A stretch of DNA of 37,963 nucleotides, taken from NCBI GenBank assembly GCA_947476075.1, contig CANJPM010000008.1, positions 1 to 37,963 of the forward strand, read 5' to 3'. Origin of the DNA: Beijerinckiaceae bacterium. Its GTDB lineage: Bacteria > Pseudomonadota > Alphaproteobacteria > Rhizobiales > Beijerinckiaceae. Position 1 is the stretch's first letter. The number at the start of each line of letters is the position of its first letter. This document shows, in pieces, positions 6,686 through 16,935 of this stretch. The notes beneath the pieces were generated by a model, which was not told where the DNA came from, made no database searches, and saw only the letters and a list, made by a program, of their open reading frames with translations. The translations under genes and the position numbers were made by a program.

Positions 6686-7681
6686 CTAATCCAGCCGGAA
6701 CTTCGTCATATCGCGATGTTCGCCCTGAATCTTGCGCACGGTGCCGGTGACCGAACGATAGATCACCGTCTCGGTTTCAACGAAGTTCTTGCCGAACTTC
6801 ACGCCCTTGAGCAGCGCGCCGTCGGTGACGCCGGTGGCGCAGACGATCACGTCGCCGGACGCCAGCTCCTTCATGTCGTAGATCTTCTTGGGGTCGGTGA
6901 TGCCCATTTTGAGCGAGCGCTCGCGCTTGGCCTCGGTGTCGAGGATCAGGCGACCCTGCATCTGGCCGCCGACGCAGCGCAATGCGCCAGCCGCCAGCAC
7001 GCCTTCAGGGGCGCCGCCTGTGCCGAAGTAAATATCAACGCCGGTCTGGTCCGATTGCGCGGTGAAGATGATGCCTGCGACGTCGCCGTCGGTGATCAGA
7101 CGCACGGAGGCGCCGACGCGGCGACAGGCGGCGATAAGCTCGGCATGGCGCGGGCGATCCAGAATGAGCGCGGTGATGTCGCCCGGCTTCACACCCTTGG
7201 CCTTGGCCAAAGCATGGATATTTTCCTCAACCGAGGCGTCGATATGCACGACGCCCTGCGGATAGCCGGGGCCGATGGCGATCTTGTCCATGTAGACGTC
7301 CGGCGCGTTGAGCAGCGAGCCCGATTGCGCCATAGCCATCACGGCGATGGAGCCGGGCATGTCCTTGGCGCAAAGCGTAGTGCCTTCCAGCGGATCGACG
7401 GCGATGTCGACCTTGGGGCCGGTGGCCGTCCCCACGCGCTCGCCAATGAACAGCATCGGAGCCTCGTCGCGCTCACCCTCGCCGATCACGATCGTGCCGT
7501 CGATGGGCAGGCGATTAAGCTCGCGGCGCATGGCGTCCACGGCCGCCTGATCGGCGGCCTTCTCGTCGCCGCGACCGCGCAGACGGGCGGCGGCAACCGC
7601 CGCGCGCTCGGTCACGCGAACCAGCTCAAGGGTGAGGATGCGCTCGATAATATCCTGCTGTTTAATAACAAGGTCGGTCAT
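6686..7681 (-). CDS. glpX: Class II fructose-1,6-bisphosphatase
   Basis: This 331-residue cytosolic phosphatase hydrolyses fructose 1,6-bisphosphate to fructose 6-phosphate in gluconeogenesis; some homologues also act on sedoheptulose 1,7-bisphosphate. The GlpX-type metal and substrate motifs are intact: GEGERDEAPMLFIGE, VDIAVDPLEGTT, and the downstream RPRHAELIAACRR and LITDGDVAG segments. The length matches the family. A CGGAGCTCTT ribosome site precedes ATG at 7681. It lies 46 bases downstream of hom on the same strand, and the two are probably co-transcribed. Confidence 0.95.
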   Translation of the reverse strand: MTDLVIKQQDIIERILTLELVRVTERAAVAAARLRGRGDEKAADQAAVDAMRRELNRLPIDGTIVIGEGERDEAPMLFIGERVGTATGPKVDIAVDPLEGTTLCAKDMPGSIAVMAMAQSGSLLNAPDVYMDKIAIGPGYPQGVVHIDASVEENIHALAKAKGVKPGDITALILDRPRHAELIAACRRVGASVRLITDGDVAGIIFTAQSDQTGVDIYFGTGGAPEGVLAAGALRCVGGQMQGRLILDTEAKRERSLKMGITDPKKIYDMKELASGDVIVCATGVTDGALLKGVKFGKNFVETETVIYRSVTGTVRKIQGEHRDMTKFRLD

Positions 7682-7727
7682 AAGAGCTCCGTTAAGCGTT
7701 TATTCGAATGCGCATCCAGCCACGCGA

Positions 7728-9041
7728 TCACTCGCGTTCGATTCTGATCACCTGCGGTTTTTCGGCAATGTACCCGTCTCCGACAGCCGCCTCCAGCGCT
7801 TCGCGAATGTTGGCTTCCGTCGTCGCATAGGTCAGAAGCACTACCTGCACCGGCTCGCCGGTCGTGCCTGCCGAGCGCCCGCGACCCGCAGACTTCTGCA
7901 TGATGCTTTCTAAAGAAATGTTCCGCTCCGCCATCCGCATCGCGATGTTTGCAGCTGCTCCCGGCCGGTCGCGGACGGCGAGGCGGATGTAATAGCCACC
8001 CTCGTGCCGCTGCATGGCGCGTCGCGGCGCCATTTCAAGCGAGGCTGTGGGCAGACCAAACGGTGCCGAGCGGATGCCGCGCGCCACGTCGGAAATGTCG
8101 GCAACCACGGCGGACGCAGTCGCCTCGCCGCCGGCGCCAGGGCCAACCAAAGTCAGCTCCTTCACCGCGTCGGCGTCAATCGTCACCGCATTGGTGACGC
8201 CCATCACCTGTGCGATGGAGGAGGATTTTGGCACCATCGTTGGGTGCACGCGTTGCTCGATGCCCTCATCCGTGCGCTGTGCGACGCCGAGCAATTTGAT
8301 GCGATAGCCCAGCTCGTCGGCCGAGCGCAGATCGTCGAGCGTGATCGCGCGAATGCCCTCAATATGGATCGCCTCGGCGTCGACGCAGGTTCCAAACGCC
8401 AGCGAGGTCAGAATCGAAAGCTTGTGGGCGGTGTCGAAGCCGTCGATGTCGAAGGTGGGATCGGCTTCCGCATAGCCAAGGCGCTGGGCGTCGGCAAGGC
8501 ATGCGTCGAATGCAATCCCCTCACGCTCCATGCGGCTGAGGATGTAATTGCAGGTGCCGTTGAGAATGCCGTAAACGCGGCTGATCTCATTGCCCGCCAG
8601 CCCTTCGCGCAACGTCTTCACAATCGGAATGCCGCCGGCGACCGACGCCTCGAAGGCCAGCGCCACGCGCTTGTCTTCAGCCAGTTTGGCCAGCGCCATG
8701 CCATGTTTGGCGAGCAAGGCCTTATTGGCGGTTACGACGGATTTGCCGGAGGCGAGCGCGGTTTCCACCGCCTTGCGGGCTGGCCCCTCGTCGCCGCCGA
8801 CCAGTTCTACGAACAGGTCGATATCGTTTGAGGCGGCCAGCGCCACCGGATCATCGAACCATTTGGCGCCCGACAGGTCGATTCCGCGATCAAGAGTCTT
8901 GTCGCGCGCACACACGGCGGCGACGACAATCTTGCGCCCGGTTCGGGCCTGAAGGGCCATGTCCTGACGGTTCAGAAGACGAATGACGGAGGCGCCGACA
9001 GTGCCAAGACCGGCTATGCCGATGCGTAAGGAATTGGTCAT
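7728..9041 (-). CDS. hom: Homoserine dehydrogenase
   Basis: This 437-residue enzyme reduces aspartate semialdehyde to homoserine, the branch point to threonine and methionine. The N terminus carries the Rossmann loop GIAGLGTVGASV. The catalytic domain has VTANKALLAKHG, GILNGTCNYILSRM and EADPTFDIDGFD. The C-terminal segment (RLAVRDRPGAAANIAMRMAE onward) is an ACT domain, implying allosteric control, usually by threonine. It is followed by glpX. Its upstream neighbour on the same strand is the GTPase/sensor module rather than the aminotransferase expected from rhizobial gene order. Confidence 0.95.
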   Translation of the reverse strand: MTNSLRIGIAGLGTVGASVIRLLNRQDMALQARTGRKIVVAAVCARDKTLDRGIDLSGAKWFDDPVALAASNDIDLFVELVGGDEGPARKAVETALASGKSVVTANKALLAKHGMALAKLAEDKRVALAFEASVAGGIPIVKTLREGLAGNEISRVYGILNGTCNYILSRMEREGIAFDACLADAQRLGYAEADPTFDIDGFDTAHKLSILTSLAFGTCVDAEAIHIEGIRAITLDDLRSADELGYRIKLLGVAQRTDEGIEQRVHPTMVPKSSSIAQVMGVTNAVTIDADAVKELTLVGPGAGGEATASAVVADISDVARGIRSAPFGLPTASLEMAPRRAMQRHEGGYYIRLAVRDRPGAAANIAMRMAERNISLESIMQKSAGRGRSAGTTGEPVQVVLLTYATTEANIREALEAAVGDGYIAEKPQVIRIERE

Positions 9042-9110
9042 ATGGAATCGTACCCGCGACAGGGCTGCGCCGCAGCAGCGCGCGGTTCATGACTCATTTC
9101 ACGGCGCCGA

Positions 9111-10649
9111 TCAAGGAAACCCGACGAAACGCCCATGCGAATAAGTGCAGGAAGAGCCGGATTTGGAGCGTGGAAAGGTCAGCGCCACCCTCAGCCCAGC
9201 GTCCCAACCGGGGTCCAGCGCCAGCACGCCGCCGTGGATTTCCATGATCCGGCGGCACTCGGGCAGCCCCATGCCGACGCCGCCGCACCCCTGAATTCGC
9301 TCGAAAAACTCGAGCGCACGGGCGCGCAGAGGCCCGGCAAGACCCACCCCGTCGTCGGTGACGCGCACGACAATTCCGCTGTCGTCCTCAATGCAATCAA
9401 TCACCATGTGCGGCGACTCGCCGCCGTGGCGAAGCACATTGCCGATGATTTCGGCAAACATCCGCGTCAACAAAGCAGGATCGCCCACCACCGCCAGCAT
9501 CGGCCTGATCGCGATCTGCGCCCCGGCGCGGCGCAATTCGTCAGCCAGGCCCAGCGCAATTCCTTCGATCAAAGCGCCAAGATCAACGGGAACCATGGGC
9601 GGGCTGGAGCCGAACAGGCTCTCAAACCGCTCCAGAGCCTGCGTCACATCCATCAGCGCCCGCACCTGCGCCAGCGAGAGTCCCTGGTCGCTCGCGCCCT
9701 TCCCGGACGCCTCAGCGCCCGCGCCAGCCTCTCTGCGCCGACCAGACCCTCTGCTCTGCCGGGGACCTTTGCTCTGCCAGGGATCTCTGCTCTGCAATAC
9801 CGGGCGCATGCGCTTCACGGCGCCGCGGATCAGGGCGCGCAGGTCAGCTTCGGCTTTGCCAAGGCGCGCCTTCTCGACCTTGATGCGCTCCAGCCGGAGC
9901 ATGGGCTCGGTCACGTCCTCCGAATACACAAACGCTCCGGCGACCGTCCCGTCTGTCTCGCGCCAGGGAACCTGCTCCCAGCGGGTCCAGACCGGCGAGC
10001 CGTCTCGAATGGTTTTCTCGACGCGCGAGGAAGGCACGCCGTTATCGATCGACATCCGCAAGAATTGCGCGCGCTCTGCTTCGGTGTAAACGCCGCAGCC
10101 TTGCTGCGCGGCGCTTTTGTCCTGCAAGGCGTACAATGCGCGCCAGCGCTCCGAGGCGACTATCTCGGTGAGATCGCGATCGATCACGGCGACGGCGGCG
10201 GGCGCACGCTCGATGAACTGTTTGAGCAGATCGGCGCGCGCGGCGCGATGCTGATCGCGCTCGATCCAGGCGTGTTCATCAAGAATGCGTTGACGACGCT
10301 CGGTCTGCTTGGCTGCGCGCAACAATTCCAGCCGGTCGCCGGCGTCAAGCGAGAACACCGCAAGGCGCTGCGAATTGGGCAAGCGCAGAATGCGGAAGTC
10401 GCAACCCCGCGCACCGATACGCACCGCCGGCAGATGCAACGGAGCGCCATCCAGCGCGACGCGCTGCAAAGCCTCGCCAAGCCCCACGAACAGCGGCGCT
10501 TCATCAAGCAGGCGCCCCGGCTGCGGCGCCCATTCGGCCTGACCCATCAATTCATGCACGCGCCCTTCAGCGTTGACCACGCAAACGCCGAGCACGCCCG
10601 CGTGCATCAAATTTGACGAAAAGCCCTCAGCGACGGGGGTTGCGTGCAT
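9111..10649 (-). CDS. PAS-domain sensor with GHKL ATPase domain, no visible phospho-acceptor histidine
   Basis: This 512-residue protein probably ends a four-gene signalling operon. Residues 15-110 look like a PAS-type or other ligand-binding fold. A clearer PAS domain covers about 142-250 (FIERAPAAVAVIDRDLTEIV ... VYSEDVTEP). A coiled stretch follows to about 285. Residues 355-495 form a GHKL ATPase with an N box (EIIGNVLRHG, 400-409), a G1 box (DDGVGL, 432-437), an F-box-like FFERI and a G2 box (GGVGMGL, 456-462). Residues 250-350, where the DHp helix should present His, contain no histidine at all. Instead there is a QS-rich hexapeptide repeat. It may be an unorthodox kinase or an ATP-dependent sensor. 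Its start lies three bases after the GTPase stop. Confidence 0.8.
   Translation of the reverse strand: MHATPVAEGFSSNLMHAGVLGVCVVNAEGRVHELMGQAEWAPQPGRLLDEAPLFVGLGEALQRVALDGAPLHLPAVRIGARGCDFRILRLPNSQRLAVFSLDAGDRLELLRAAKQTERRQRILDEHAWIERDQHRAARADLLKQFIERAPAAVAVIDRDLTEIVASERWRALYALQDKSAAQQGCGVYTEAERAQFLRMSIDNGVPSSRVEKTIRDGSPVWTRWEQVPWRETDGTVAGAFVYSEDVTEPMLRLERIKVEKARLGKAEADLRALIRGAVKRMRPVLQSRDPWQSKGPRQSRGSGRRREAGAGAEASGKGASDQGLSLAQVRALMDVTQALERFESLFGSSPPMVPVDLGALIEGIALGLADELRRAGAQIAIRPMLAVVGDPALLTRMFAEIIGNVLRHGGESPHMVIDCIEDDSGIVVRVTDDGVGLAGPLRARALEFFERIQGCGGVGMGLPECRRIMEIHGGVLALDPGWDAGLRVALTFPRSKSGSSCTYSHGRFVGFP
9752..9796. repeat. 18-bp tandem repeat inside the sensor gene
   Basis: Two and a half copies of an 18-base unit beginning TGCTCTGC start at 9752, 9770 and 9788. 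In the protein this gives three QS-led hexapeptides (QSRDPW, QSKGPR, QSRGSG) at residues 286-303. Since 18 is a multiple of three, a change in copy number would alter linker length without breaking the frame. Confidence 0.75.
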
Positions 10650-10652
10650 AAT

Positions 10653-11186
10653 CTAATTCCTGTCTCGCTGAATGGATTGCGCGAGCGAAAGAAAAGCCTT
10701 ACGCACGCCGCGCCCGGTTTGCGCGCTCGCCTGTATGACGGGACGACCGCCAAACGGCTTCAGTTCAGCCGCGCCCGGCGCGACAAGATCAACCTTGTTG
10801 AGTACTGCGCATGTCGGCCGGCGCGGCATGGTGCGCTCGAAGCCATCCAGCAACAAAGCCATGCGCGCCAGCGTTTGCGGGCGCGTCGCATCGCCAACCA
10901 CCAGCGCCCCCGAAGCGCCGGCGGCATAGGAACTGGTGAGGATAGATTCCCCGAAATCTCCGTCCGTATCCCAAATCACCAGACGCAGCGGGCGTCCATC
11001 CTGCAATTCGACGTCATAGCTCACGAGGTCAACGCCGATAGTCGTCTTGTAATCATATGAAAAGGTATCGAACACCAGGCGACGCAGCAACGACGTCTTC
11101 CCTACGCCAATAGGGCCGAGCAACATGATTTTCACGGCGGAGCAGCTCTTGTGCGGCAAGCTCTCAGACTGGTTCAATATAGTCAC
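10653..11186 (-). CDS. Ras-like small GTPase (bacterial Rab/Rup type)
   Basis: This 177-residue protein has the full set of G motifs of a Ras-superfamily switch. The P-loop is GPIGVGKT at 24-31, switch I is YKTTIGVD with the G2 threonine at 48 or 49, G3 is WDTDGD at 72-77, G4 is NKVD at 130-133 and G5 is SAQTG at 154-158. Canonical Ras-like G3 is DTAGQ; here the glutamine that positions water is replaced by Asp. No membrane anchor or lipidation motif is seen. Its ATG overlaps the stop of the roadblock-like membrane gene by four bases, and the sensor gene starts three bases after it. Partner proteins are therefore probably its neighbours. Alternatives such as an ARF-like or MglA protein fit less well. 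Confidence 0.88.
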   Translation of the reverse strand: MTILNQSESLPHKSCSAVKIMLLGPIGVGKTSLLRRLVFDTFSYDYKTTIGVDLVSYDVELQDGRPLRLVIWDTDGDFGESILTSSYAAGASGALVVGDATRPQTLARMALLLDGFERTMPRRPTCAVLNKVDLVAPGAAELKPFGGRPVIQASAQTGRGVRKAFLSLAQSIQRDRN

Positions 11187-12373
11187 GGCGCGCCTCCCTC
11201 AAGACGATGATTATCCGGCTCTTTGACGGGTTCAAATTTCTTGTAGGCCGAATGCAGACTGGTGAATGACGTGCGCGCAACAACTCGATATTGCGGCCCG
11301 GCGGCGACTTCAACGACGGCGAGCAGCGCATCGGCTTCAGCGGCTGAACCCGCGAGAACGCGCAATTCCACCTTGCGGGCGCCATGATCGGTCATCAATC
11401 CAAGCGGCATGATTGCGCTTTCGGGATGTTCGCTCATGAACGCCTCAACCGCGGCGGCCGTAGTGCGCTCATGGCGCAAATGCACGCCTGTGCGCCAGCC
11501 ATATCCAACGAGCGCCACCAGAGCGATCACGCCAGCGAGCTGGGCGAGGCGAAGCGAAACCGGCGTGCGTATGCGCGGCCGCGCCGATGAGATGGCGCCG
11601 GCGGCGGCCGCGAGCCTGGATTCTTCAATCGCGCCGCCCTGATGCAACAACAATTCAAGAAAGCGTCCGCTCAGAGCCGTTTCTTGCTCGGGCGCCAGTT
11701 CGGCGTCGGTCTCGGCAGCCACAATCAGATCGTCGCTCATGCGAAGATAGAGACGGCGCCCGCCAAAATCGATGGAGCGCAAGGATTGCTCGCCCAGAGC
11801 GTCGCGCGCAAAGCCGGTAATCGCCGCAATCAACCCGCTGATGAGATCCGCATTGTCGGACGCAGCGCCGCCACGACGCCAATTGGCGATCAACAACCCG
11901 CTCTTGCGCTCCAGAAAAAGCACACGCTCAACCTGCGCCGGCGAATAATGGGAATCCTGCGAAGACTCCCGCGCGCCGAACAGACGCGCAACCCTGTTGT
12001 CGAATTGCTGGAACCGGCAGGCGCGGGCGCAGCGCGCGAGCTGCGGCGCCACAGGACGCAACGCCTCGGCAAGATTGTCGCGCGAAAGGCGCGCCTCATG
12101 GAAGAGCGCCAACACCAGCGACGGCCCCAACGCTTTCGACAAATCCTGCGCACGCTCTCCGCTGGCGCGCTGCAACGCCCGCACCATCACTTCGGCGACC
12201 GCTGTCTCAAACCGGTCGGATGACCCCACCCGTCCATCGAGCGCGCCCACGCGCTGTTCCGCCTGCGCGAGCCGGTCTATTTCCGGGGCGAACAAAAGTC
12301 GCTTCAGCGCCTCCAGCTCGCTGATCTTTTCGGCTCCGGCGCAATCAGGTTCAGCGCGCATGACGTCACCCAT
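11183..12373 (-). CDS. One-pass membrane protein with roadblock/longin-like cytoplasmic domain
   Basis: From the chosen start this is a 396-residue protein. Residues 20-50 form a charged helix opened by KRLLFAPE, and 55-130 are helical. Residues 148-245 alternate strand and helix (VERVLFLERKSGLLIANW, then NADLISGLIAAITGFARDAL, then RLYLRMSDDLIVAAE), which resembles a roadblock/longin fold that often contacts small GTPases. A single membrane helix (about 276-293) leads to a periplasmic end of about 100 residues that may be BON-like. From memory, the layout resembles OmpA-domain proteins with the same central segment, but the OmpA domain is absent. ATG at 12373 overlaps the preceding gene by eight bases; ATG at 12361 is the alternative. 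The fold assignments are inference. Confidence 0.65.
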   Translation of the reverse strand: MGDVMRAEPDCAGAEKISELEALKRLLFAPEIDRLAQAEQRVGALDGRVGSSDRFETAVAEVMVRALQRASGERAQDLSKALGPSLVLALFHEARLSRDNLAEALRPVAPQLARCARACRFQQFDNRVARLFGARESSQDSHYSPAQVERVLFLERKSGLLIANWRRGGAASDNADLISGLIAAITGFARDALGEQSLRSIDFGGRRLYLRMSDDLIVAAETDAELAPEQETALSGRFLELLLHQGGAIEESRLAAAAGAISSARPRIRTPVSLRLAQLAGVIALVALVGYGWRTGVHLRHERTTAAAVEAFMSEHPESAIMPLGLMTDHGARKVELRVLAGSAAEADALLAVVEVAAGPQYRVVARTSFTSLHSAYKKFEPVKEPDNHRLEGGAP

Positions 12374-12740
12374 CCGACGGTTCCGAGATCTTGAGGATTT
12401 GCGCGCCGAGGCTGGCGATGGCCGAACCAATGCCTTGCGTGGCCGACAAATGGCGGCGCTCAACCGCCGCATCGCCATCGGCCATGCGGGCCTCAAGGTC
12501 GGCGAACAAAGACATCATGTCGGCGCGCAGAGCGTTGATCGACTCATGCAGTTCCTGAATGCGATGGTCCGTCTCGCGACGCGCGGGGCCAAACAACAGC
12601 TCGCGAACCTGATCGATGGTCCCATCCGCCGGGGCATTGGCCGGCGCAGGCGCGCTGCTCGCCTGAACGCCGGGCGCATACGCGCCGTCCGTCTGCGGGA
12701 AGTTTTCCACCATCGAAGTGGAGCTTTCGTCGAACACCAT
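12366..12740 (-). CDS. Small coiled-coil protein, first gene of the GTPase module
   Basis: This 124-residue soluble protein has no recognised family. Residues 1-40 are Pro/Ala/Ser-rich and probably disordered. Residues 42-116 are predicted long helix with heptad character (VRELLFGPARRETDHRIQEL, then LRADMMSLFADLEARM). The RELLFGP motif at 46-52 matches KRLLFAP at the head of the coiled segment in the next protein, suggesting that both use the same docking or oligomerisation helix. ATG at 12740 follows an AGGAG site, so upstream in-frame ATGs are not used. The promoter of the whole unit should lie in 12741-12851. Confidence 0.6.
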   Translation of the reverse strand: MVFDESSTSMVENFPQTDGAYAPGVQASSAPAPANAPADGTIDQVRELLFGPARRETDHRIQELHESINALRADMMSLFADLEARMADGDAAVERRHLSATQGIGSAIASLGAQILKISEPSDG

Positions 12741-12851
12741 GTGCCAATCTCCTGTCGCGGGCTGACGCAGCGTGACGTGTCTCAAAATAAAACGTAACGC
12801 CCTCTCTCCCAATAGCACAGGTCAACTTGCAAGCCACGGGCCATTAAGGAA

Positions 12852-12893
12852 AAATTAAAAAACCCGCCCGAGCTGCAAAGGCCGGGGCGGGTC
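12852..12893 (-). terminator. Rho-independent terminator of the aminotransferase gene
   Basis: On the minus strand, ACCCGCCC (12892-12885) pairs with GGGCGGGT (12869-12862), followed at once by a T-rich run (TTTTTAATTTTT). It sits 40 bases after the aminotransferase stop. It separates that gene from the GTPase module, so the module is likely to have its own promoter. Confidence 0.85.
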
Positions 12894-12933
12894 AATTATT
12901 TGGCGAACTTGGCGAATTAGGATCAGCGAGCGA

Positions 12934-14151
12934 TCAGCCGCCGGTCTCGAGGTTCACGACATTGTGCAATGTCTCGTCAGCTGTATCAAAAAAGCGCCGG
13001 ATGCCGCGCGCGGCCTGACGGATACGCTGTTCATTTTCGACCAGCGCCAGACGCAGATAAGCGTCGCCGTGCTCGCCAAACCCGATGCCGGGCGCGACCG
13101 CCACATCGGCCTTCTCGATCAATAGTTTGGAGAATTCCAGCGAGCCCAGATGCTTGAATTTATCGGGGATCGGCACCCATGCGAACATGGACGATGTCGG
13201 CGCCGGGATGTTCCAGCCCGCCTGCGCGAAGCTCTCCACCATCACGTCGCGACGACGCTTGTAGATCGAGCGCATCTCGTTGATGCAATCGTCAGGACCG
13301 TTCAGGGCTGCGGCGGCCGCCACCTGCACCGGCGTATAGGCGCCGTAATCCAGATAGGACTTCACACGCGCCAGCGCAGCCAGCAAACGCTCGTTGCCAA
13401 CGGCAAAGCCGATGCGCCAGCCGGCCATCGAATAGGTTTTCGACATTGAGGTGAACTCGACGCACACGTCGTTGGCGCCAGGCACCTGCAAAACGGAGGG
13501 CGGCGGGTTGTCGTCGAAATAGACCTCCGCATAAGCCAGATCCGAGAGCACGAAAATCTCGTGCTTCTTGGCGAACGCGACCAGATCCTTGTAGAAATCG
13601 AGGCTGGCGACCATCGCCGTCGGGTTGGATGGGTAGCACACCACCACAGCAATCGGCTTGGGGATGGAGTGGATGACGGCCTTCTCCAGCGCCACGAAGA
13701 AGTCCGGCGTGGGTTCAGCCGGCACCGAGCGGATGACGCCGCCAGCCATCAGAAACCCAAAGGCGTGAATGGGATAAGAAGGATTGGGCACCAGCACCAC
13801 ATCGCCGGGGGCGGTGATCGCCTGCGCCATATTGGCGAAGCCTTCCTTGGAGCCCAGAGTCGTGATGACCTGCGTGTCAGGATTAAGCTTCACGCCAAAG
13901 CGACGCTCGTAATAGGAGGCTTGAGCACGGCGGAGGCCGGGAATGCCCTTGGAGGCCGAATAACGGTCGGTTCGCGGCTTGCCGGCGGTTTCAACCAGCT
14001 TGTCGACCACGTGCTTGGGAGCCGGCAGATCCGGATTGCCCATGCCAAGGTCGATGATGTCTGCGCCGCCGGCGCGAGCCTTTGCCTTCAAGCGATTGAC
14101 CTGCTCGAAAACATAAGGCGGCAGCCGCTTCACGCGATGGAAATCCGTCAT
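12934..14151 (-). CDS. Class I/II PLP-dependent aminotransferase (AlaC/LL-DAP-aminotransferase-like)
   Basis: This 405-residue fold-type I enzyme has the PLP motifs DLGMGNPDLPAP near the N terminus, VPNPSYPIHAFGF, CYPSNPTAM, SDLAYAEVYFDD and the Schiff-base lysine in SMSKTYSMAGWRIGF (Lys238). Such proteins are annotated variously as alanine (AlaC), aspartate or LL-diaminopimelate aminotransferase, and sequence alone does not decide. The 405-residue start at 14151 follows GGACAGGACG and fits family N termini; an upstream in-frame ATG at 14187 adds 12 unlikely residues. In relatives I recall, it directly precedes hom, linking it to aspartate-family amino acids. Here 3.8 kb intervenes. Confidence 0.88.
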   Translation of the reverse strand: MTDFHRVKRLPPYVFEQVNRLKAKARAGGADIIDLGMGNPDLPAPKHVVDKLVETAGKPRTDRYSASKGIPGLRRAQASYYERRFGVKLNPDTQVITTLGSKEGFANMAQAITAPGDVVLVPNPSYPIHAFGFLMAGGVIRSVPAEPTPDFFVALEKAVIHSIPKPIAVVVCYPSNPTAMVASLDFYKDLVAFAKKHEIFVLSDLAYAEVYFDDNPPPSVLQVPGANDVCVEFTSMSKTYSMAGWRIGFAVGNERLLAALARVKSYLDYGAYTPVQVAAAAALNGPDDCINEMRSIYKRRRDVMVESFAQAGWNIPAPTSSMFAWVPIPDKFKHLGSLEFSKLLIEKADVAVAPGIGFGEHGDAYLRLALVENEQRIRQAARGIRRFFDTADETLHNVVNLETGG

Positions 14152-14208
14152 CGTCCTGTCCGTATTCCTGAAAAGATTCGCGGCCATAAGGCCGTCAGCC
14201 CCTGCTTA

Positions 14209-14676
14209 TCACTTCTTTTTCTGGACGCCGCTAGAGGCGTTGCAGGTGAGCGTACACCGGACCTCGACTTTTTTCTTCTTTTCCGTTGGCTCGCCAGCCG
14301 CCGAGACGAATTTACCTCGTGTCGGCTTGCGCCCGCTCAACTGATCGTGGCGCGCACGCGCCGCATCCAGCTGGGCTTCACGCTGGCGGATTTCGTCCGG
14401 CGTCAGCAGTTTGCGCGCAGGCTCCGCGCCCGGCTGCACGCGCGCAGGCTCTTTCAGCTCACCGGGACGCCGCGCCTTGACCCAGTCAGCCGGCTCGACG
14501 GGATCGGCCCGCAGCTTCGGGCCCTGAAGAATCGCATCGATGAACCCCGGCTGCGCACGGCGCCCGCCCTGCTCCTGCTGGGCGCTGGCTGGGACGCTCG
14601 AAAAAATCGCAAAAACGCCAGCCAGAATGAAGGCGAGCCGCTCTTGTCGTCTTAAAGTCATGCTCGTCATCGTCAT
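14209..14676 (-). CDS. Secreted proline/arginine-rich protein of unknown function
   Basis: From ATG at 14676 this is a 155-residue protein. It begins with a signal peptide (RLAFILAGVFAIFSSVPASAQ). The mature part is polar and rich in Pro, Arg and Lys: it has LLTPDEIRQREAQLDAARAR, then a lysine cluster EKKKKVEVRC, two Cys residues (CTLTC) and the end GVQKKK. The two close cysteines could form a disulphide after export. I recognise no family. The longer frame to 14781 adds 35 residues without a ribosome site. It ends 57 bases before the aminotransferase start and may share its transcript. Confidence 0.55.
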   Translation of the reverse strand: MTMTSMTLRRQERLAFILAGVFAIFSSVPASAQQEQGGRRAQPGFIDAILQGPKLRADPVEPADWVKARRPGELKEPARVQPGAEPARKLLTPDEIRQREAQLDAARARHDQLSGRKPTRGKFVSAAGEPTEKKKKVEVRCTLTCNASSGVQKKK

Positions 14677-14886
14677 GTCCAACAGATATTTTATGAAATT
14701 CGTCCCAGACGGCTCCGGGCTTTCTTGTCGCAGGCTCGCAGGCGCACCTGCAAGCGGGCCTTCAAACCCAATTTCGGACAAACTTCGCAGCGAAACAACC
14801 TAATGGCCAGTGGCGTGTCGATTGTTTAGCTGCGTATTATGGTCCATTCGAGACATTGGGTTTGCCCCCCAGACGGAGATTTGTAA

Positions 14887-16935
14887 ATGGCCCCCGATGA
14901 AGCGGCGCCCTCCCGGAAGGCCAGACCGACGGCGACCAAGCGCACAAAAGCTGTAAATACAAAGGGCCAGGCGGCCGCCTTGGCGCCGGCTAAAGTCGGG
15001 GCAAAGACCGCGGACAAGGCGAGGGGCAAGAAAGCGCCCGCCCATAAGCCGGTCGAGCCTTTAGCGCCCAAAAAAGCAAAACCCGCGGTGGCCAGCGCGC
15101 CGGCGCCCGAGATCGTTCAAAAGCCGGCCCCACAAGACAAACCGACGGAAGGCGCCTCCGCCCCTCAATCCGTCAATTTTGAAGCCCTCGCCTACAATCT
15201 GGGACGCCTCACCGAGGAAGGCGGCAAGGCGCTCGCCGCCTATATGCGCCCCATGCAGGAGGGGCGCACCAACCCTGACATGGCCGAGCATGTGGAGGAC
15301 GCGGTCAAGACGCTGGGACAGGTCGCGCAATACTGGCTCTCCGACCCAAATCGCGCCATGGAGGCGCAATCCCGCCTGACCAGCGAATTGGTCGACCTCT
15401 GGGGCGCGACGTTCCGGCGCCTGGCAGGCGACGAGGCCGCCCCTGTCCGAACGCCTGAACCCGGCGACAAACGTTTCGTCGATCCTGAATGGCGCAAGAA
15501 CCCGCTTTTCGACTTTTTGCAGCAGGCCTATTCGATCACGACGCATTGGGCGGGCGACATGGTGGCGGGTGCGCAGGACGTTGACCCCGCCACGCGCGAG
15601 AAAGCGTCCTTCTACTTGCGTCAGGTCGCGGGCGCGCTTTCGCCCTCCAATTTCGTGGGAACCAACCCCGAGCTGTTACGCACCACGCTTGAAGAGAACG
15701 GCGAGAACCTCGTGCGCGGCATGAAAATGCTGGCGGAGGACATCGAGGCCGGCAAGGGTGCGTTGAAGATACGCCAGAGCGACAGCACGAAGTTTGAACT
15801 GGGTCGCGACATGGCGGCCACGCCAGGCAAGGTAATCTTGCGCAACGATCTGATGGAGCTGATCCAGTATGCGCCCTCGACGCCGCAGGTCTACAAACGC
15901 CCGCTGTTCATCGTGCCGCCGTGGATCAACAAATTCTACGTGCTCGACCTCAACCCAGAGAAGAGCTTCGTGCGCTGGTGCGTCGACAATGGCCTGACCG
16001 TATTCGTTGTCTCGTGGGTCAACCCTGACGAGCGCCACGCCGACAAGAGCTTTGAGGATTACATCAAGGAAGGCGTGTTCGCAGCGCTCGACGCCATTGA
16101 GCTGGCGACCGGCGAGCGCGACGTCACCGCGATTGGCTATTGCGTCGGCGGCACGCTGCTTTCCATCGCCATGGCGCTAATGGCGGCCAAGGGCGACAAA
16201 CGGATCAGCAGCGCAACGCTTTTCACGACACAGGTCGATTTCACGGATGCGGGCGATCTGAAACTTTTCGTCGACAGCGCACGCATTGGCGCGCTGGAGG
16301 AAAAGATGCGCCAGACAGGCTATCTTGAAGGCGCCAAAATGGCGTCAGCCTTCAACATGCTGCGGCCCAATGAATTGATCTGGGGTTATTTCGTCAACAA
16401 TTATCTGAAGGGCAAGGAGCCGATGCCTTTTGACCTGTTGACGTGGAATTCGGATTCCACCCGGATGCCAGCGGCGAACCATTCATTTTATTTGCGCAAT
16501 TGCTACCTCGACAACACCCTGGCGCGCGGTCAAATGACAATGGACGGCGTGCGCCTCGATCTCAAAAAAGTGAAGATACCGATCTATGAACTCGCGACCC
16601 GCGAGGATCACATCGCGCCCGCCCGCTCCGTCTTCACCGGCGCCAAATTGTTCGGCGGCCCGGTGCGCTACGTGCTCTCGGGGTCGGGCCATATCGCCGG
16701 CGTGGTCAACCCGCCCGCCAAACCCAAATATCAATATTGGACCGGCGCCAAACCTGTCGGCGAGTTCGAGGACTGGCTCGCCAAAGCGCTGGAAACCAAG
16801 GGCTCATGGTGGCCAGACTGGCTGGAATGGATCGTCGGGCAGGCCCCTAAGAAGGTCGCAGCTCGCCAGCCCGGCGACGGCAAGATTAAACCCGTCTGCG
16901 ACGCACCGGGCGAATATGTGCGGGTGAAGGCTTAA
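14887..16935 (+). CDS. phaC: Class I poly(3-hydroxyalkanoate) synthase PhaC with long basic N-terminal extension
   Basis: This 682-residue enzyme polymerises (R)-3-hydroxyacyl-CoA into PHA granules. The alpha/beta-hydrolase core has the nucleophile box GYCVGG with Cys419. The partner Asp574 lies in TREDHIAPA and His602 in [13 protein letters not shown]. Their spacing parallels Cys319/Asp480/His508 of the Cupriavidus enzyme. The first 95 or so residues are extra compared with ordinary class I synthases (about 590). They are Ala/Lys/Pro-rich, histone-tail-like and lack predicted structure. Start at 14887 follows GGAGATTTGTAA. No phasin, phaR, phaA or phaB gene is nearby. The gene is convergent with argC. 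Confidence 0.95.

Follow-up and report, generated by a model that had tools for sequence, protein, structure and literature searches.

A probable Group 1 Rup-type GTPase module with a predicted longin/roadblock domain and a histidine-less sensor in a Beijerinckiaceae bacterium

The four-gene locus and its recurrence

The DNA analyzed here, referred to as the window, is a stretch of 37,963 nucleotides from a Beijerinckiaceae bacterium (contig CANJPM010000008.1 of assembly GCA_947476075.1), and it carries a compact group of four minus-strand genes that includes a Ras-like small GTPase. Gene 1 (12366..12740) encodes P0001, a coiled-coil protein of 124 amino acids, and gene 2 (11183..12373) encodes P0002, a one-pass membrane protein of 396 amino acids with a predicted longin/roadblock domain and without an OmpA domain. 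Gene 3 (10653..11186) has a GTG start and encodes P0003, a 177-amino-acid small GTPase of the Rup type. Gene 4 (9111..10649) encodes P0004, a histidine-kinase-like sensor of 512 amino acids that comprises an N-domain, a PAS domain, a degenerate dimerization and histidine phosphotransfer region and a HATPase domain. The reading frames agree with the original prediction, made from the sequence of the window, of four touching or overlapping genes: genes 1 and 2 overlap by 8 bases, genes 2 and 3 overlap by 4 bases, and a 3-base gap separates genes 3 and 4. All four frames are intact, with overlapping starts. The contents ascribed to genes 2 to 4 (i.e., a one-pass membrane protein, a Ras-like GTPase and a PAS/ATPase sensor) are likewise borne out by Pfam matches to Ras, PAS_4 and HATPase_c and by a single hydrophobic segment.

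P0003 matches Pfam Ras with an E value of 6e-21, and its G1 (GPIGVGKT from residue 24), NKVD (from 130) and SAQ (from 154) motifs are intact. The G3 motif, DTDGD (10956..10970, minus strand), has an Asp at the place of the Ras catalytic Gln61; in all 13 aligned GTPases, this residue is Asp, Glu or Asn and never Gln. Absence of the G3 glutamine is reported for the Group 1 Rup GTPases surveyed by Wuichet and Sogaard-Andersen (2014, PMC4316618). In the passages of the survey drawn on here, these GTPases have three conserved neighbors. One is a cytoplasmic coiled-coil protein; the second carries a conserved domain of unknown type, after which a transmembrane helix and OmpA often follow; the third is an output protein that has an invariant Gln in the N-terminal region and is typically a histidine kinase or a cyclic di-GMP enzyme. 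The same passages compare the neighborhood with the actinobacterial conservon, state that no Rup member had then been studied experimentally, and list Bacteroidetes, Chloroflexi, Cyanobacteria and gamma-Proteobacteria for Group 1, with alpha-Proteobacteria given for the whole Rup family only. The original prediction also held that no described system combines these parts. This part does not stand, because the Group 1 Rup neighborhood, as far as those passages describe it, is this gene set, and conservons, in the portion of a second paper drawn on here (PMC13343842), also combine a GTPase with a roadblock protein and a histidine kinase. Within the open-access literature, and judging papers that cite the 2014 survey by their titles, we found no later paper on Rup systems and none that names a longin domain in Rup neighborhoods.

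A GTPase profile built from 13 aligned sequences returned 114 candidates, of which the best 80 were taken together with their flanks. Upstream, on the same strand, a relative of the longin protein is encoded in 75 of these 80 loci and a relative of the coil, itself upstream of the membrane gene, in 74. All of the longin misses (L031, L032, L034, L037 and L100) and all six coil misses (the same five and L074) are at contig ends. The same partners recur across loci, so the four-gene arrangement is not chance, and the genes that were predicted to belong together do co-occur in other genomes. The sensor N-domain was detected in 69/80 loci. It lies directly downstream in 27 of them (the HisKA type and the His-less clade described below) and within a NarL-type kinase in 42, a class assigned by position and profile in which 15 of the 16 candidates that were read carry the class H-box and one (L063) is noise. 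The NarL-type kinases of these 42 loci lie upstream or convergent, and LuxR-type or receiver-domain regulators were read beside a few of them (L030, L055, L061, L004 and L006). Such kinases lie near the same core in L023, L027, L029, L030, L036, L061, L064 and others, where the N-domain is shared and a glutamine discussed below is missing. In Rhodoblastus (L040, L057, L091 and L096) and Methylocystis (L028, L047 and L048), the available flanks revealed no sensor N-domain beside the coil, the longin protein and the GTPase.

The pair of longin domain and GTPase extends beyond these loci. More specifically, of 15 distant loci, drawn from the phylum's other orders and classes and from plasmids of Mesorhizobium and Nostoc, 13 have a gene next to the GTPase that matches the domain profile; on the Nostoc plasmid, longin domain and GTPase are paired in this way, and one of the two misses (L190) is a locus that ends at a contig end. 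On the Mesorhizobium plasmid pWSM1497 (L198:3240-8557), a hypothetical protein, an OmpA family protein and a Rab family GTPase are followed by an adenylate/guanylate cyclase-domain protein at the position of the output. The occurrence of the GTPase is patchy, with 26 of 297 sampled genomes of the order and 50 of 398 of the phylum positive at an E value of 1e-20, and 15 of 51 genomes of the genus at 1e-10.

A predicted longin/roadblock domain beside the GTPase

P0002 has no match in Pfam or NCBIfam, and the Pfam search gave no Robl_LC7 profile match in it. It was modeled with AlphaFold2 (AF2) from 61 aligned sequences, namely that of the window and 60 of 76 relatives, with mostly near-copies left out. 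The model has a mean predicted local distance difference test score (pLDDT) of 82.4 and a predicted template modeling score (pTM) of 0.50; because of the latter, the domains are only loosely placed relative to one another. Residues about 142-266 (11576..11950, minus strand) form a domain with the order b-b-a-b-b-b-a-a, its strands and helices spanning 148-263, for which 10-residue mean pLDDT values are 82-96 over residues 141-260 and 78 over 261-270. A transmembrane segment follows at residues about 272-290 (11504..11560, minus strand; Kyte-Doolittle mean of 1.99 over 19 residues), spanned by a modeled helix at 272-315. Beyond it, AF2 predicts a b-b-a-b domain that is perhaps BON-like (residues 324-370; 11264..11404, minus strand); at E<=1, Pfam BON was found in 8/61 and BON_like in 4/61 of the membrane-protein members, and neither was found in the window copy.

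Foldseek comparison of the middle domain with the PDB yielded 43 matches with E values of at most 0.001. Mon1-Ccz1 (1.3e-4), AP sigma, MglB (2.4e-4) and p14/MP1 are among the best, with E values of 1e-4 to 1e-3, and we take the best 50 matches, which also include Fuzzy-Inturned, TRAPP and Rag GTPase complexes, to be longin/roadblock-domain proteins as judged by their titles. Normalized to target length, the TM-scores are moderate, at 0.44-0.62 for chains of about domain size, and lower for long chains. Roadblock domains start with a helix. In the P0002 domain, two helices follow the last strand, which is the longin order; a circular permutation is described as separating longin from roadblock (Zhang et al. 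2012, PMC3521125). The predicted fold thus agrees with the proposal of a roadblock/longin-like central domain rather than something unrelated, and we predict that the middle domain of P0002 has a longin/roadblock fold in longin order. What looks new here is a predicted longin/roadblock identity for the "unknown domain" of Group 1 Rup neighborhoods. Sequence searches of the PDB with the domain returned only unrelated proteins at E 0.17 or worse. Membership by sequence in the Robl_LC7/MglB family was considered and dropped, the profiles being weak or absent. Profiles of the alpha set and of the distant set of the domain match each other at 1e-19.

Pfam OmpA is present in 60 of the 61 membrane-protein members scanned, the sole exception being the window copy. 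Membrane-gene frames are also short in G341 (438 amino acids), G021 (326 amino acids) and G023 (242 + 117 amino acids, stop to stop), so the loss of OmpA seems, from these sequences, to be confined to a small lineage.

Two genomes of the genus have lost the longin domain and the GTPase together. Among 51 genomes of the genus, 15 have the GTPase and a longin-bearing membrane gene (on separate contigs in G015 and G035), 2 have a longin-less membrane gene and no GTPase, and 34 have neither. The flanks of the two longin-less genomes, G021 and G023, share 80-89% identity with the window; both genomes retain the coil, and their membrane gene is without residues about 135-265 (i.e., the longin domain). 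Their GTPase gene is nearly all gone, and the sensor is gone except for its last 44 residues. At the junction in G021, a 23-base stretch matches GTPase codons at 20/23 positions, the best of 200 shuffles reaching 18, and an in-frame TGA additionally interrupts the membrane gene of G023. The loss in G021 and G023 is probably one shared event and counts once. Such a pattern would be predicted for a longin domain that serves the GTPase. The coil and the remaining membrane-protein parts of two close relatives, which are without longin domain, GTPase and sensor body, lie at L148:4483-5829 and L149:3006-4502, with a TGA break in L149.

The longin-like domain might instead merely dimerize or bind a ligand, with no GTPase contact. 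PAS and longin folds are described as alike (PMC3521125), not every such domain binds a GTPase, and the profile match of the domain to roadblock is weak. Against this, the best 50 fold matches are longin/roadblock proteins and not PAS domains, and G021 and G023 lack both the domain and the GTPase yet retain the remainder of the membrane protein, even though this counts as one event. We regard a role without GTPase contact as unlikely.

P0001 has no match in Pfam or NCBIfam. Its coiled coil was judged by reading the sequence rather than with a coil predictor, and its hydrophobicity profile contains no segment equal to the transmembrane segment of P0002. The coil may have a role of its own, as it is kept and still looks constrained in the two relatives without the longin domain, GTPase and sensor body (ratio of nonsynonymous to synonymous divergence, dN/dS, of 0.16 between the two).

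A sensor clade without the phosphoacceptor histidine

P0004 matches PAS_4 (E 5e-10) and HATPase_c (E 5e-13) in Pfam, and its AF2 model has a mean pLDDT of 80.6. The HATPase_c domain (Pfam residues 389-494; 9168..9485, minus strand) keeps its N, G1 and G2 boxes. Indeed, N404, D432/G434/G436 and G459/G461 are invariant in 28/28 aligned sensors, all of which have HATPase_c and 23 of which have HisKA (Pfam). In the same alignment, the H-box position of P0004 is Arg280 (9810..9812, minus strand), which replaces the phosphoacceptor His. This His is missing from 8 of the 28 sensors, that of the window included, which have R, N, K, N, E, N, N and D instead, and a ninth His-less member of the clade (G337) has D. 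Collectively, the phosphoacceptor His is absent in 9/9 members of this clade and kept in 26/26 distinct comparable sensors outside it. The 26 consist of 20 from the alignment together with L011, L110, L117, L113, L112 and L119; L109 and L106 are the same proteins as L093 and L022, respectively, and L012 and L102 belong to the genome of L097, so these four were not counted as distinct. The nine His-less members and G341, whose contig does not include its sensor, lie on one side of a branch with a Shimodaira-Hasegawa-like approximate likelihood ratio test (SH-aLRT) value of 85, which is not strong support in a quick tree with long branches, those of the window and G341 among them.

L022, L031 and L097 have a stretch that aligns to the PAS region, yet they keep the His, and the PAS domain and the His loss are therefore separate. 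The His loss is also older than the OmpA loss, given that the five His-less relatives scanned (L021, L024, L025, L026 and L071) carry OmpA. From these alignments, a His-less sensor clade that keeps its ATP-binding domain looks to be new here. Because the phosphoacceptor His is gone, ordinary histidine phosphotransfer by P0004 is unlikely. NifL and DivL are known to work without ordinary His phosphotransfer. In a Foldseek search with P0004, the matches were phytochromes and histidine kinases; NifL (9qq6) ranked second, and DivL (4q20) was within the top 50. No HAMP domain was found in P0004 by Pfam, and its most hydrophobic 19 residues, which score 1.5, fall within the ATPase region, compared with 1.99 for the transmembrane segment of P0002.

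The invariance of the ATP-binding boxes would also suit a sensor that is still a kinase or phosphatase through another residue, the GTPase merely tuning it, as may hold in conservons, where the sensor CvnA8 is reported to autophosphorylate in a manner dependent on His183 (PMC13343842). However, the H-box residues of the nine clade members (R, N, K, N, E, N, N, D and D) offer no common replacement acceptor, and we saw no response regulator beside the window sensor gene on the reading frames at 7000-15500. Retained catalysis of this kind is, in our estimation, quite unlikely.

The sensor also has a candidate trans-acting glutamine. Gln115 (10305..10307, minus strand) lies in the helix after the N-domain, near the invariant Arg118, and 27 of the 28 sensors of this class have a Gln 2 or 3 residues before this Arg; the spacing is 3 residues in 13 sensors (three of which also have a Gln at 2) and only 2 in 14. 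The match between Gln115 and the invariant Gln of the 2014 survey is our own identification. We also considered the N-domain as a roadblock domain, which its order of strands and helices would allow, and rejected this for want of profile support (one PAS_8 match at 0.056, in 1/25). By default, we treat the N-domain as PAS-like.

Loss of OmpA and His in the window lineage raises a further explanation, namely that the module is decaying under relaxed selection and the window copy is heading to the state of G021 and G023 with little function left. OmpA is missing only in the window among the 61 members, with short frames in G341, G021 and G023; the core is deleted in the latter two, and the membrane gene of G023 is broken. 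Moreover, the window and G021 share 56% identity in the membrane protein and 97% in the adjacent homoserine dehydrogenase (dN/dS 0.03). Weak constraint in the window lineage is a real rival because the membrane protein far outpaces this neighbor. On the other hand, the four frames of the window, the GTPase motifs and the ATP boxes are intact, and the His loss predates that of OmpA. Among the window, G021 and G023, dN/dS is 0.16-0.29 for the coil and about 0.33 for the membrane protein, and pairs with G341 give 0.31-0.44, all of which are below 1. We consider decay somewhat unlikely, and an explanation to be taken seriously. Between the window and L148, we also noted synonymous divergence of 0.75 for the coil, 1.05 for the membrane protein and 0.42 for the homoserine dehydrogenase, which may reflect allele exchange or codon bias.

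The genes that neighbor the module look ordinary. Upstream lies an aminotransferase (12934-14187), and downstream lie the homoserine dehydrogenase (7728-9041) and a GlpX-like phosphatase (6686-7681), all three named by reading the proteins rather than by family search. Scans for promoters and terminators gave matches no more numerous than in shuffled sequences. Upstream of gene 1, inspection by eye alone showed a hairpin at 12891-12863 with T's after it, and a tRNA-Glu (ttc) is located at positions 3-77 of the window on the minus strand.

Proposed mechanism and relation to known systems

The part of our interpretation that is directly supported comprises gene order, motifs, predicted folds and losses. 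Beyond this, we lean slightly towards a Group 1 Rup-type module of uncultured Hyphomicrobiales in which the GTPase is under the control of a longin platform held at the membrane and itself gates a non-phosphorylating, ATP-binding sensor. The relay of a signal by sensor and GTPase across the membrane protein, as proposed in the original prediction, is a putative step. In such a module, the coil, the N-terminal helices and the longin domain would form a platform held at the inner membrane, and the longin domain would dock and control the GTPase as a guanine nucleotide exchange factor (GEF), a GTPase-activating protein (GAP) or an effector. The helix of the sensor N-domain that carries Gln115 and Arg118 would read the state of the GTPase or complete GTP hydrolysis, an idea that goes back to the 2014 survey. 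Sensor output in the window clade would consist of ATP/ADP and partner binding, in the manner of NifL and DivL, rather than phosphate transfer, which could serve as the output in the His-bearing relatives. The OmpA domain of the relatives would sense the cell wall or tether the protein to it, an input that the window copy would have dropped.

Several observations weigh against this model. Only single chains were folded, and every interaction, input and target in it is inferred. Fuz_longin_1 was matched in 1 of 43 relatives (E 0.0021) and Robl_LC7 in 2 of 43 (best E 0.027), and a Pfam scan of 13 distant domain members detected neither of the two. With hhalign, the alpha set compared with 27 Robl_LC7 proteins gave a P value of 0.25, which is not significant, and the distant set compared with Robl_LC7 gave 0.0094 over 75 columns, which is marginal. 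Because this Pfam and hhalign support is weak, the assignment of the P0002 domain rests on fold and not on family. The distant locus L188 has the GTPase and upstream sequence with no longin match. No sensor N-domain was found in the available flanks of 11/80 loci (L028, L037, L040, L047, L048, L057, L063, L070, L073, L091 and L096), two of which, L037 and L073, end at contig ends. The Gln occurs in 0/42 sensors of the NarL class, which keep the Arg alone, and thus the trans-acting Gln idea cannot be general. Finally, the window lineage has decay-like traits, with OmpA and His lost and the core lost in two relatives.

A broader and more tentative possibility is that a bacterial domain of longin order, on a cell-wall-anchored membrane protein and paired with a Rab/Ras-like (Rup) GTPase, is a counterpart of the eukaryotic longin-Rab pair, distinct from MglA-MglB and present in cyanobacteria and proteobacteria, and that in the window clade it drives a GTPase-gated ATP switch without phosphotransfer. 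If so, the finding would bear on the origin of eukaryotic longin-Rab pairs. The predicted longin/roadblock domain also names a likely GTPase partner where the passages of the 2014 survey drawn on here leave the domain unidentified and the GAP unknown. The His-less clade would provide a natural test of whether a GTPase can signal to a kinase-like protein independently of phosphotransfer, and the relatives that lost several parts together would serve as natural deletion mutants.

NifL and DivL, among the solved fold matches listed for P0004, share its PAS and HATPase architecture, and we know of no GTPase partner for either. In MglA/MglB, the GTPase also adjoins a partner of the longin/roadblock superfamily, and MglB chains are among the best fold matches of the P0002 domain; however, the GTPase is of another family, MglB is a separate roadblock protein, and the profiles give no significant match. 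The eukaryotic longin GEFs Mon1-Ccz1 and Fuzzy-Inturned are among the best fold matches, and their longin domains are reported to act on Rab GTPases. They are heterodimeric complexes without a transmembrane helix or OmpA. The actinobacterial conservon (CvnA-D), as far as it is described in the source drawn on here, is likewise a small operon that joins a kinase-like sensor, a roadblock-type protein and a Ras-like GTPase. It differs in that CvnB is a separate MglB-type roadblock protein, CvnD belongs to the MglA family, and the His183 of CvnA8 is active, whereas the domain in the window has the longin order and is part of a membrane protein whose gene adjoins that of a Rup-type GTPase, and P0004 has neither a Pfam HAMP match nor a segment as hydrophobic as the transmembrane segment of P0002. 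With regard to the Group 1 Rup neighborhood, the window differs in the missing OmpA, in a His-less, kinase-like output and in a predicted identity for the domain left unassigned in those passages of the survey, but it has the same set of a GTPase without the G3 Gln, a coil, a protein with that domain and a transmembrane helix, and an output protein together.

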